A program made the position numbers and the translations under genes. Below, piece by piece: positions 18,591 to 20,942 of a stretch of 34,887 bases of DNA (position 1 is its first letter; every line of letters starts with the position of its first letter). The DNA comes from Schumannella sp. (GTDB lineage: Bacteria > Actinomycetota > Actinomycetes > Actinomycetales > Microbacteriaceae): the NCBI GenBank assembly GCA_025463555.1, contig JAODAS010000086.1, forward strand, positions 1-34,887, written 5' to 3'. The notes under the pieces are model-generated. The model saw only the letters and a list, made by a program, of their open reading frames with translations. It was not told where the DNA came from and searched no databases.

Positions 18591-19622
18591 GTGAGCTGGT
18601 TGCCGCCGGACGAACCCGACGACGACCGCGACTTCGGCGAGTGGAACGAGTCCGACGCGCGCGTCCGTCCGAATCCCAAGGGCAACCGGCCGCGCACCAA
18701 GACCCGCCCGGAGCACGAGGACGCGATCGTGGCGCGTGTGCTCTCGGTGGATCGAGGCCGCTACACGGTGCTGGCGGACGAGGACCGGCCCGAGGAGCGG
18801 GTCCTCACCGCCACTCGCGCGCGCGAGCTGCGCAACGACGCGATCGTCACCGGAGACAGGGTGGATGTCGTGGGCGACACGACGGGCGAGGAAGGCTCCC
18901 TGGGGCGGATCGTCCGCATCCAGCCCCGCACGACGTTGCTGCGCCGCAGCGCGGATGACACCGACGAGGTGGAGCGGATCATCGTCGCCAACGCCGACCA
19001 GCTCATGATCGTGGTCGCTGCGGCCGATCCGGAACCGCGTCCCCGGCTGGTGGACCGGTACCTCGTGGCGGCGTACGACGCAGGAATCGCACCGCTCATG
19101 GTGATCACGAAGACCGACCTGCAAGACCCCGAGCCGTTCCTGCAGAACTTCGCCGGCCTCGACATCCTGACGATCCGCAGTTCACAGCTCGACTTCCCGA
19201 TCGCGGAACTCGCTCCCCTGCTCGCCGGACACACCACCGTCGCGGTGGGTCATTCAGGTGTGGGCAAGTCGACTCTGGTGAACGCTCTGGTGCCGGGAAC
19301 GGATCGCGCGGTCGGCATCGTCAATCAGGTCACCGGCCGCGGTCGTCACACCTCGTCGTCGACGGTGTCGCTGCGCGTGCCGTCGGGCGGCTGGATCATC
19401 GACACCCCCGGCGTGCGCTCGTTCGGTCTCGGGCACGTGAACCCGAGCAGCATCCTGCGCTCGTTCACCGACCTCGCCGAGGTGGCGCTGGAGTGCCCGC
19501 GCGACTGCAGCCACCTCGCGGACGCCCCCGACTGCGCGCTCGACGAGGCTGTCGCGGAGGGCCGTCTGAGTGCCGAGCGCGTCGACTCGATGCGCCGCCT
19601 GCTGGCCACCCTCGGTGGTTGA
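18591..19622 (+). CDS. rsgA: Ribosome small-subunit-dependent GTPase A
   Basis: This 343-residue protein starts at GTG 18591 (MSWLPPDEPDDDRDFGEW), 4 bp after the aroA stop. It is a circularly permuted GTPase with an OB-fold N-terminus and the motif order G4 (VITKTDLQ), G1 (GHSGVGKSTL), G3 (IIDTPGVRSF), then a zinc-binding tail (CPRDCSHLADAPDCAL). RsgA assists late maturation of the 30S subunit. Its last codons and the TGA stop (19620-19622) are supplied by the first copy of a palindromic repeat (GGTGGTTGAGTAG), so the repeat forms the 3' end of the gene. Confidence 0.94.
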   Translation: MSWLPPDEPDDDRDFGEWNESDARVRPNPKGNRPRTKTRPEHEDAIVARVLSVDRGRYTVLADEDRPEERVLTATRARELRNDAIVTGDRVDVVGDTTGEEGSLGRIVRIQPRTTLLRRSADDTDEVERIIVANADQLMIVVAAADPEPRPRLVDRYLVAAYDAGIAPLMVITKTDLQDPEPFLQNFAGLDILTIRSSQLDFPIAELAPLLAGHTTVAVGHSGVGKSTLVNALVPGTDRAVGIVNQVTGRGRHTSSSTVSLRVPSGGWIIDTPGVRSFGLGHVNPSSILRSFTDLAEVALECPRDCSHLADAPDCALDEAVAEGRLSAERVDSMRRLLATLGG

Positions 19623-19700
19623 GTAGCGGCGCAGCCGCGTATCGAAACCCGCGCCCCGGTGGTTGAGTAGCGGCGCAGCCGCGTATCGAAACCCGCGCCC
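19613..19700 (+). repeat. Two identical 44-bp direct copies of a REP-like palindromic repeat
   Basis: Copies at 19613-19656 and 19657-19700 are identical. Each reads CGGTGGTTGAGTAGCGGCG ... GCCGCGTATCGAAACC plus CGCGCCC. The core GCGGC-GCA-GCCGC forms a hairpin, and the outer GGTTGAGTA/TATCGAAACC arms are an imperfect inverted repeat. A third copy in opposite orientation is at 20049-20085. I recall repeats of this kind scattered through Microbacteriaceae genomes. Confidence 0.9.
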
Positions 19701-19750
19701 CCTGTGCACAGCCCGCACCCCACCCCGGCGCCCCACGCCATGCTCGTCCG

Positions 19751-20899
19751 ATGCCCTTCATGTACATCCTCCAGTGCCGGGATCTCAGCTACTACGTCGG
19801 GAGCACCTGGAACCTGGAGCAGCGAATGGCCCAGCATCAGGCGGGCGAAGGCGCGGACTACACCCGGCGCCGTCTGCCCGTCGTGCTGGTCTTCGCGGCC
19901 GAGTTCGAGCGGATCGAGGATGCGTTCGTCATGGAGAAACGGGTGCAGGGTTGGTCTCGCGCCAAGCGCCGGGCTCTGATCGATGGACGGTACTCGGATC
20001 TGCCGAATCTTGCGAAGAAGACTTCCGGCGCGGTTCGGGGTGACGTGTGGTTTCGATACGCGGCTTCGCCGCTACTCAACCACCGGACCTACGCTGGAGT
20101 GGTGGCCGAATTCACTCTCGCCGACGACCTCGCCGTCGCCCTCACCCTCGCGCACGAGGCCGACCTGATCGCGATCGACCGGTACCGCGCCCAGGACCTG
20201 GATGTGCAGCTCAAGCCCGACCGCACCCAGGTGACCGACGGCGACACGCGCGTCGAACGCATGATCCGCGACCACCTTGCCCAGGCGCGTCCCGCGGACG
20301 CGATCCTCGGGGAGGAGTTCGGCGGAGCAGACCCGCACGCCCCCGGCCGCCAGTGGGTCGTGGACCCGATCGACGGCACCGCCAACTTCGTGCGCGGTGT
20401 TCCGATCTGGGGGTCCCTCATCTCACTCGTGATCGACGGCGTGCCAGAGGTCGGCGTGGTCAGCGCTCCGGCCCTCGGCCGGCGTTGGTGGGCGGCGACC
20501 GGTCATGGCGCGTGGGCGGAGGCGGACGGAGAGCCCGCGCGCCGCATCCATGTCAGTGCGATCGCCGATCTCGCCGACGCGACGCTCAGTTACAACAGTC
20601 TCAAGCACTGGGATGGAGCGGGCCGACTCGACCAGCTGATCCAGTTGAGCCGCGCCGTCCGCCGGACCCGGGCATTCGGGGATCTGTGGTCGTACATGCT
20701 GCTCGCCGAAGGCTCCATCGACATCGCCGCGGAGTTCGACGTCAAGCCGTGGGACGTCGCCGCGCTCATCCCGATCGTGCGCGAAGCAGGTGGTACCGTC
20801 ACCGACGCTTCAGGCGGCGACCGGCTCGATTTGCTGAGCATCGTCGCGTCGAACGCGGCGCTGCATCCGGCGGTACTGGATTTCCTGGCGTTTCGCTAG
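19751..20899 (+). CDS. GIY-YIG nuclease domain whose open frame runs on into hisN
   Basis: The first 85-90 codons encode a compact UPF0213/YhbQ-type GIY-YIG domain: MYILQCRDLSYYVGSTWNLE (residues 4-23), with the two-Tyr/Gly signature, Arg in LEQRMAQHQAG, and the catalytic-type Glu in VMEKRVQGWSRAKRRALIDG. Stand-alone relatives are about 90-100 residues. Here no stop codon follows: the frame passes LPNLAKKTSGAVRGDVW, then translates the inverted palindromic repeat (FRYAASPLLNHR) and continues into hisN, giving 382 residues. Whether the fusion is made, or whether hisN is started separately at 20102, cannot be decided from sequence. The nuclease gene is bracketed by inverted copies of the repeat. 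Confidence 0.75.
   Translation: MPFMYILQCRDLSYYVGSTWNLEQRMAQHQAGEGADYTRRRLPVVLVFAAEFERIEDAFVMEKRVQGWSRAKRRALIDGRYSDLPNLAKKTSGAVRGDVWFRYAASPLLNHRTYAGVVAEFTLADDLAVALTLAHEADLIAIDRYRAQDLDVQLKPDRTQVTDGDTRVERMIRDHLAQARPADAILGEEFGGADPHAPGRQWVVDPIDGTANFVRGVPIWGSLISLVIDGVPEVGVVSAPALGRRWWAATGHGAWAEADGEPARRIHVSAIADLADATLSYNSLKHWDGAGRLDQLIQLSRAVRRTRAFGDLWSYMLLAEGSIDIAAEFDVKPWDVAALIPIVREAGGTVTDASGGDRLDLLSIVASNAALHPAVLDFLAFR
20049..20085 (-). repeat. Inverted third copy of the palindromic repeat
   Basis: On the minus strand this 37-bp stretch matches the repeat at 19613-19649 with one mismatch, in the central loop. It lies between the GIY-YIG domain and hisN, so the nuclease is enclosed by oppositely oriented repeats. 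Confidence 0.9.
20102..20899 (+). CDS. hisN: Histidinol-phosphatase (inositol-monophosphatase family)
   Basis: From GTG 20102 (MAEFTLADDLAVALTLAHEAD) the protein has 265 residues, the usual family length. It has the metal-binding motifs GEEFGG, WVVDPIDGTANFVRG and the C-terminal WDVAALIPIVREAGG. Actinobacterial proteins in the aroA-rsgA-hisN neighbourhood act as histidinol-phosphatase, so HisN is preferred over a generic inositol phosphatase. A CTGGAG lies just before the start. The same frame is open upstream into the GIY-YIG domain, and automatic annotation would probably call one 382-residue fusion. Confidence 0.88.
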   Translation: MAEFTLADDLAVALTLAHEADLIAIDRYRAQDLDVQLKPDRTQVTDGDTRVERMIRDHLAQARPADAILGEEFGGADPHAPGRQWVVDPIDGTANFVRGVPIWGSLISLVIDGVPEVGVVSAPALGRRWWAATGHGAWAEADGEPARRIHVSAIADLADATLSYNSLKHWDGAGRLDQLIQLSRAVRRTRAFGDLWSYMLLAEGSIDIAAEFDVKPWDVAALIPIVREAGGTVTDASGGDRLDLLSIVASNAALHPAVLDFLAFR

Positions 20900-20942
20900 G
20901 CTTGCGGGGTTCTCAGGCCCGCACCCTTTGGAGGCACACCGC

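Follow-up and report, generated by a model that had tools for sequence, protein, structure and literature searches.

Results

A GIY-YIG gene bracketed by inverted repeats between rsgA and hisN

The window analyzed here is a stretch of 34,887 nucleotides (nt) from contig JAODAS010000086.1 of Schumannella sp. (assembly GCA_025463555.1, a 2.73-Mb draft genome in 291 contigs that is 77% complete). A gene for a small GIY-YIG nuclease lies between rsgA and hisN, with two direct repeat copies upstream and one inverted copy downstream, the arrangement proposed in a preliminary description of this DNA (Table 1). The two upstream copies, 44 nt each, are 98% identical, and the downstream copy is 97% complementary to either one (38 and 37 nt). 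Inverted comparison of the two flanks of the gene gave a match score of 35; of 2520 control placements, taken from twenty stretches of 20 kb in related genomes, about 2 scored as high (p = 0.0008). The comparisons reported below identify the nuclease and its hairpin repeats as a unit that is recurrent, co-diverging, and present or absent at single sites. They suggest that a GIY-YIG enzyme contributes to the maintenance or spread of a common kind of short repeat, a part usually played by a transposase.

Table 1. Features of the rsgA-hisN locus (positions in the window)
Feature	Position	Strand	Remarks
rsgA	18591..19622	+	start is a chosen frame position; TGA stop (19620-19622) falls within upstream repeat copy 1
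Upstream repeat copy 1	19610..19653	+	core GGTTGAGTAG-stem-GTATCGAAACC at 19617-19649
Upstream repeat copy 2	19654..19697	+	core 19661-19693
CTGTGCACAG	19702..19711		strand not assigned; possibly a degenerate DnaA-box-like motif, by position only
GIY-YIG nuclease domain	19751..20035	+	conserved catalytic residues; frame open to 20899
Downstream inverted repeat copy	20049..20086	-	core 20049-20081
hisN (histidinol-phosphatase)	20099..20899	+	in frame with the nuclease; start assumed

The window protein matched PF01541 (GIY-YIG) with E = 8.9e-14. The other Pfam match was the Inositol_P domain of the fused hisN, and domain matches identified the neighbors as RsgA and HisN. Residues Y5, Y15, G17, R25, H29, and W68 were invariant in two alignments, and E62 was present in at least 90% of the sequences. 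Alignment A1 held the 50 Microbacteriaceae loci described below minus L041 and L080-L082, with the window in place of L033; alignment A3 combined the window protein with 45 sequences from the named set of 80, L178 having been left out for an internal stop and the rest by sampling. The nuclease frame has no stop codon of its own and crosses the downstream repeat into hisN, giving 382 codons (19751-20899) versus about 90-110 residues in most relatives. Fusion, loss of the stop codon, or translational coupling could each account for this frame.

An AlphaFold2 model of the protein (predicted local distance difference test score of 92.9) had UPF0213 and Slx1 as its nearest structures. Profile similarity to the UPF0213 structures 1zg2 (E = 1.1e-21) and 1ywl (E = 1.8e-16) agreed with the model. 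The earlier label of UPF0213-type is approximate: it fits the nearest structures in the PDB, but the window protein matched no family in NCBIfam. PHROGs and PADLOC held no family for the nuclease. Weak matches to a group I intron endonuclease model were found for 21 of 46 relatives (best E = 1.6e-5). Homing endonucleases of the I-TevI type have this catalytic domain as well, and copying by a homing-like route is conceivable. The window gene is intergenic, a search of Rfam over 19000-20900 gave no intron, and the short relatives show no additional domain for DNA binding. The host genome contains two GIY-YIG matches, the window gene and a second that lies in an open frame of 681 codons and is presumably UvrC.

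Inverted repeats flank nuclease genes beyond chance

Two sets of relatives were assembled. The Microbacteriaceae set consists of 50 nuclease places, found in 39 of the 150 family genomes, and includes six divergent loci outside the main nuclease clade. Named genomes contain at least 578 relatives, and the named set comprises the best 80 of these, 56-70% identical to the window nuclease. For the flank score, 450 nt upstream of each gene were matched with the reverse-complemented 450 nt downstream. The inverted score exceeded the 99% control quantile (16) in 32 of the 50 Microbacteriaceae loci and the control maximum in 7, the controls being the 2520 placements introduced above, from the same family. 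The named set exceeded the 99% quantile of 1417 within-locus placements (maximum 17) at 51 of 80 loci. This became 45 of 74 after removal of L197, which contains a run of N, and of L149, L159, L190, L194, and L209, whose genomes were already counted. The reduced set of 74 was used for the nearest-repeat, same-direction, and phylum counts. The five duplicates were also dropped from the tree, neighbor, and DnaA-box counts and were kept in the 51 of 80 and in the arm pairing.

Of the 124 loci, 67 had nearest paired-arm repeats that pointed inward and 8 had them pointing outward, compared to 17 and 20 of the 2520 control placements. Where repeats stood on both sides, the inward arrangement was found at 67 of 97 loci versus 17 of 85 control placements. 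Flank and orientation controls were placed anywhere, in intergenes and genes alike. These counts bear out the expectation that GIY-YIG genes are bracketed by inverted repeats beyond chance. Inward nearest repeats were present at 26 of 50 loci of the Microbacteriaceae set and 31 of 48 from other named Actinomycetota (57 of 98 together). The signal was less clear in the nine other phyla (10 of 26), with 3 of 10 in Bacteroidota, 2 of 3 in Thermodesulfobacteriota, 2 of 2 in Pseudomonadota (one seemingly mislabeled), 1 of 1 each in Spirochaetota, Cyanobacteriota, and Planctomycetota, and 0 of 1 each in Ignavibacteriota and Calditrichota; the Chloroflexota loci are taken up in the Discussion. Host names are those of the records, and several are metagenome bins.

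None of the six divergent loci (L073, L076, L078, and L080-L082) passed the inverted-flank threshold. Relatives of the nuclease on plasmids and phages amounted to 18 and 21 records, all below 60% identity, and no DNA match to the unit was found in plasmids. Eight of the 18 plasmid relatives were examined, and inverted flanks were present in two from Methylobacterium (scores 30 and 40). These two are about 50% identical to the window nuclease, and their CCTCATCCTGAGG...CCTCGAAGGAGG repeats have the common core described in the next section and point outward. The other six, including Bacillus yazA, an operon gene of the UPF0213 type, and a Sphingomonas gene beside nrdR, had no inverted flanks (scores 8 to 10).

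Two side observations concern individual loci. L199, labeled Stenotrophomonas maltophilia, groups with Microbacterium in both its nuclease and its neighbor genes and is likely a contamination or mislabeling. The palindrome GTTTCACGTGAAAC, which resembles a ParB site, occurs in both nuclease flanks at L046, L150, L164, and L199, and these loci share a neighbor gene.

The repeats share a hairpin core and diverge with the nuclease

The flanking repeats are varied, with a common core 5'-Y GA G ... C GA R-3' and complementary arms. The arm pairs seen were GGTT/AACC, GGTC/GACC, GATC/GATC, CCCT/AGGG, GGCT/AGCC, and CGTT/AACG. The types beside nucleases comprise the window type with GAGTAG in the 5' arm, GAGGAG types, and short CCTGAG types; GGTCGAGGAG is the Agrococcus flanking type, CCCTGAG is that of Plantibacter, and CTGAGCTTGTCGAAG is a short type of the same class. 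A GAG...CGA core lay in the matching segment of 72 of the 82 loci whose inverted score was 16 or higher, a count in which the core itself was the search target. The 82 loci were drawn from 129, with loci of duplicate genomes still included. The arms of 64 distinct flanking repeats were paired in 163 of 256 cells; shuffling gave 121.8 on average and 142 at most. The first core match was taken for this count, pairing was not demanded, and L197 was dropped.

Covariation of the stem was measured in 44 distinct 33-nt copies among the matches listed, non-hairpin copies included, using a 12-pair structure and 500 shuffles. Paired stem cells made up 96.4% versus 83.3% in the shuffles, cells changed on both sides numbered 57 versus 18.3, and the covariation score was 0.300 versus 0.089, none of the 500 shuffles being as high in any of the three. 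Two weaker measures were pairs with a double change (6 versus 4.3, equaled in 20 of the 500 shuffles) and additional pair types (11 versus 8.8, equaled in 36). The signal was lost when the pairing partners were slid. The arms in this set are partly fixed by the search patterns. Two adjoining G.A mismatches in a Py-GA-Pu context form a very stable arrangement in DNA, which would be consistent with an enzyme that recognizes single-stranded DNA in a folded state.

Repeat type was clustered on the nuclease tree. Core type required 27 changes versus 36.0 when shuffled and outer-arm type 23 versus 35.3 (for either type, none of 200 shuffles gave so few), with duplicates dropped, on a poorly resolved tree in which common descent of neighboring loci adds to the clustering.

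The repeat is dispersed in the host genome, often as inward pairs

A genome-wide count, which the preliminary description had called for, placed the window repeat at 33 sites with up to 3 mismatches. The looser arm pattern GGTYGAGTAG...GTATCGARACC gave 57 matches, one nested in another, and its reversed control pattern gave 0. Neighboring copies no more than 150 nt apart comprised 9 inward pairs, 0 outward pairs, and 4 and 1 same-way pairs. The spacers of the inward pairs measured 15-23 nt, with 16 nt in 5 of the 9; their sequences vary, and their length is mostly kept. In the host genome, this arrangement corresponds to published descriptions of REPINs, doublets of inverted repeats around a spacer of constrained length (PMC3116915). 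The repeat places of other genomes, among the matches listed, included 15 inward, 2 outward, and 12 same-way pairs, and adjacent copies in the control stretches, under a looser repeat definition, were 14 inward versus 5 outward.

Seven of the host genome's inward pairs (L007, L009, L010, L014, L018, L021, and L025) were inspected individually. Their two hairpins always had different stems, while the arms and mostly the spacer length were kept. The stem of the window copies, GCGGC..GCCGC, was found in just two further copies.

Open frames of at least 120 codons were terminated by 19 of the 33 copies. Soft landing at gene ends was considered as a property of the repeat and dropped, because random in silico arm insertion ended frames in 1935 of 4000 trials (48%). 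The same comparison bears on the proposal that the repeats are RNA hairpins only, acting as terminators or mRNA stabilizers at gene ends. The rsgA stop codon inside one copy and the covarying stems speak for such a role, which we nevertheless regard as highly improbable. No T run follows the window copies, no Rfam family matches positions 19000-20900, random insertion ends frames nearly as often as the real copies do, and neither the nuclease nor the orientation of the pairs would be explained.

Repeat number is associated with the nuclease between genomes

Two patterns, GGTYGAGKAG...GTMTCGARACC and CCTGAGCNTGTCGAAGG, were counted in the same 150 genomes. The first was present in 53 of them, in line with the earlier remark that the repeat is common in Microbacteriaceae, and the second in 24. 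With both patterns summed, at least 5 repeats were found in 32 of 39 genomes with the nuclease versus 18 of 111 without it (p = 1.9e-13, a value inflated by phylogeny), and the median repeat number was 28 versus 0. The preliminary description named abundant repeats in genomes without the nuclease, with no association between the two, as grounds for refutation; the two are associated between genomes, and the persistence of repeats in those 18 genomes speaks against a strict version of the idea.

Strand placement of the short repeat was tabulated on contig C1 of G021, where 54 clusters of CCTGAGCNTGTCGAAGG were counted. Plus exceeded minus by 22 to 9 in the first half of the contig, and minus exceeded plus by 16 to 7 in the second (p = 0.005). 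This is a hint of a replication-strand preference that gene direction confounds on a contig whose origin was not located. The first places of CCTGAGCNTGTCGAAGG among the matches listed were all plus in G139 and mixed in G037 and G033.

Nuclease and repeats are present or absent at single sites

The 39 of 150 family genomes with the nuclease make its distribution patchy, and a homologous neighbor within about 1.5 kb was common to 60 of 7750 locus pairs. The preliminary description had suggested comparing the rsgA-hisN spacing in relatives that lack the unit. The junction is empty in G041, the one other genome of the genus compared, where a gap of about 9 nt (hisN taken from the first in-frame GTG) contains neither nuclease nor repeat.

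A second site was found in Agrococcus. Among 24 genomes of this genus, one intergene was readable in 8 of the 17 treated, which with the query genome makes 9. It was filled in 3 of the 9 (G118, G182, and G161) and empty, with no tblastn match, in 6 (G049, G164, G169, G170, G176, and G177). Inspection of the empty sites by eye showed a terminator-like hairpin alone in G170 and G176 and repeat remnants in G164. Presence, absence, and inversion of the nuclease are thus seen at one Agrococcus site, the exact borders of which are not readable. The inverted case is G161 (L248, L267), in which the nuclease is reversed at this intergene.

A DnaA-box-like element precedes many nuclease genes

The motif TTRTCCACA, with up to 1 mismatch, was present within 90 nt before the start codon at 47 of 122 nuclease loci and was exact in 19, three loci with less than 300 nt upstream having been left out. 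Two windows further upstream contained it at 1 of 122 and 2 of 122 loci, and the background was 34 in 4440 control windows and, ahead of long open frames, 5 in 380 starts. The distance was narrow, with 36 of 48 sites 40-60 nt ahead of the start. Among the 95 loci from named actinobacterial families, 46 carried the element, versus 1 of 29 others (one locus with less than 100 nt left out); it was also present at 2 of the 6 divergent loci without repeats. In the window, CTGTGCACAG stands at about the right distance, the motif lying about 48 nt before the start in related units, and fails the one-mismatch test. TTRTCCACA resembles the DnaA-box consensus; that DnaA binds the element is a guess from this resemblance.

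This element also bears on a reading in which the nuclease serves the host. The Ssn proteins of Neisseria meningitidis, said to come from work by Chenal et al. in Nature Communications in 2025, are reportedly site-specific single-stranded GIY-YIG nucleases. They would be the closest known kind, small free-standing enzymes likewise paired with a dispersed genomic repeat as presumed target, and the window nuclease is probably related to them. The unit described here has inverted copies with a Y-GA-G/C-GA-R core around the gene, REPIN-like doublets in the host genome, and the DnaA-box-like element in Actinomycetota. By analogy, the enzyme could be a sequence-specific single-strand cutter that regulates recombination or transformation through repeat-bearing DNA taken up or exposed, with the repeats as address labels and the pair kept by the host and not selfish. 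The pairing of a GIY-YIG nuclease with a dispersed repeat, the conserved catalytic residues, and the regulated expression suggested by the actinobacterial DnaA-box-like elements agree with this proposal. The patchiness of the nuclease, its presence or absence at single sites, its diverse neighbors, and its close relatives in distant phyla look more like mobility, and we consider a host-serving cutter rather unlikely.

Discussion

The arrangement at the rsgA-hisN junction is best read as a selfish unit resembling a REPtron, in which repetitive extragenic palindromic (REP) sequences flank the transposase gene thought to spread them, with a small GIY-YIG nuclease in place of the usual HUH transposase. 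We assign this reading a probability of roughly 0.6 from the sequence comparisons. REPtrons likewise have a gene between inverted palindromic repeats, and their repeats include doublets with a length-constrained spacer and compensatory stem changes (PMC3733652, PMC3116915). The unit works like a REPtron without belonging to that class: its enzyme is a GIY-YIG hydrolase of unrelated fold, and the Pfam matches and the structure model give no sign of the HUH motif and catalytic tyrosine of IS200/IS605-type transposases. The GTAG tetranucleotide that ends a REP is also lacking as an end here, since GAGTAG stands within the 5' arm of the window type and other types flank nucleases too. No publication connecting GIY-YIG enzymes with REP sequences was found in the literature searched. 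In such a unit the repeat would form a hairpin in single-stranded DNA, with tandem G.A pairs between complementary arms and a free inner stem. The nuclease is predicted to recognize this hairpin in single-stranded DNA, for example on the lagging strand, and then to nick it; binding, strand specificity, and nicking are all parts of the prediction. The nicked copy could be repaired or annealed against another repeat, by which route the repeat would be copied or relocated. Alternatively, a released hairpin strand might be captured and the repeat spread in that way. A nuclease gene between two repeats would at times travel along. A wider and tentative extension is that GIY-YIG nucleases spread a widespread Y-GA-G...C-GA-R class of REP-like repeats, including the Methylobacterium type, by nicking coupled to replication and by homing, with expression tied to DnaA in Actinomycetota, nicks at lagging-strand hairpins, and repair that copies the repeat pair or the gene. 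Bacterial DNA mobility of this kind would differ from both transposases and classical homing. Short palindromic repeats are abundant in many bacterial genomes, and a 2013 survey states that a large class of them, the CGTC repeats, apparently has no dedicated transposase (PMC3733652); the repeats described here form another class. If a GIY-YIG nuclease does spread them, part of the bacterial repeats would be driven by a different chemistry. The enzymes, of about 95 residues, often carry a predicted target in their own flanks, so their specificity is open to direct testing.

Several observations weigh against a nuclease-driven unit. GIY-YIG enzymes hydrolyze DNA without forming a covalent link and cannot join strands alone, so the joining step must fall to the host. 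A target-site duplication was not readable with one congener genome and Agrococcus sites that are too diverged. The window repeats fold modestly (z = -1.2 to -1.7 with standard energy parameters), compared to z = -2.6 for L045; the fold test covered six stretches, of which that of L041 stops before the 3' arm and that of L072 misses the intended repeat, making both uninformative. Adjacent copies at the nuclease loci of other genomes do not favor inward pairs (32 inward versus 24 outward in the Microbacteriaceae set, 62 versus 60 in the named set), so the preference seen in the host genome does not extend to nuclease loci in general. Inward nearest repeats are absent from all six Chloroflexota loci (L144, L167, L169, L171, L182, and L193), and 2 of these have outward ones; repeat orientation may be reversed in some lineages, such as Chloroflexota and the Methylobacterium plasmid loci. 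Same-direction flank matches lay above the 99% quantile of their controls at 22 of the 50 Microbacteriaceae loci and 40 of the 74 named ones, so that many flanks contain clustered copies running both ways. Fewer than 5 repeats by the two patterns were found in 7 of the 39 nuclease-bearing genomes. The 16 genera containing both states had the nuclease-bearing genomes richer in 11, poorer in 4, and tied in 1 (one-sided sign test, p = 0.059). Finally, one of the 18 repeat-rich genomes without a detected nuclease, G045, holds 629 copies. A profile search of these 18 genomes and 3 others, run without a positive control of its own and on some incomplete genomes, found no nuclease. Such orphan repeats fit nuclease loss after spread or the action of another agent.

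These points bear most directly on the possibility that the nuclease is an unrelated passenger of intergenes in which repeats also gather, their spread being due to a different agent, for instance a REP-associated tyrosine transposase (RAYT). The repeat-rich genomes without the nuclease, the frequent same-direction matches, and control placements that were not confined to intergenes would agree with a passenger. Against a passenger stand the inward orientation of the nearest repeats (67 loci versus 8 outward, and 67 of 97 versus 17 of 85 control placements where both sides have repeats), the clustering of repeat type on the nuclease tree, and the association between genomes. Inverted flanks are moreover missing from six of the eight plasmid relatives examined and from the six divergent loci of the Microbacteriaceae set. 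We consider a passenger unlikely.

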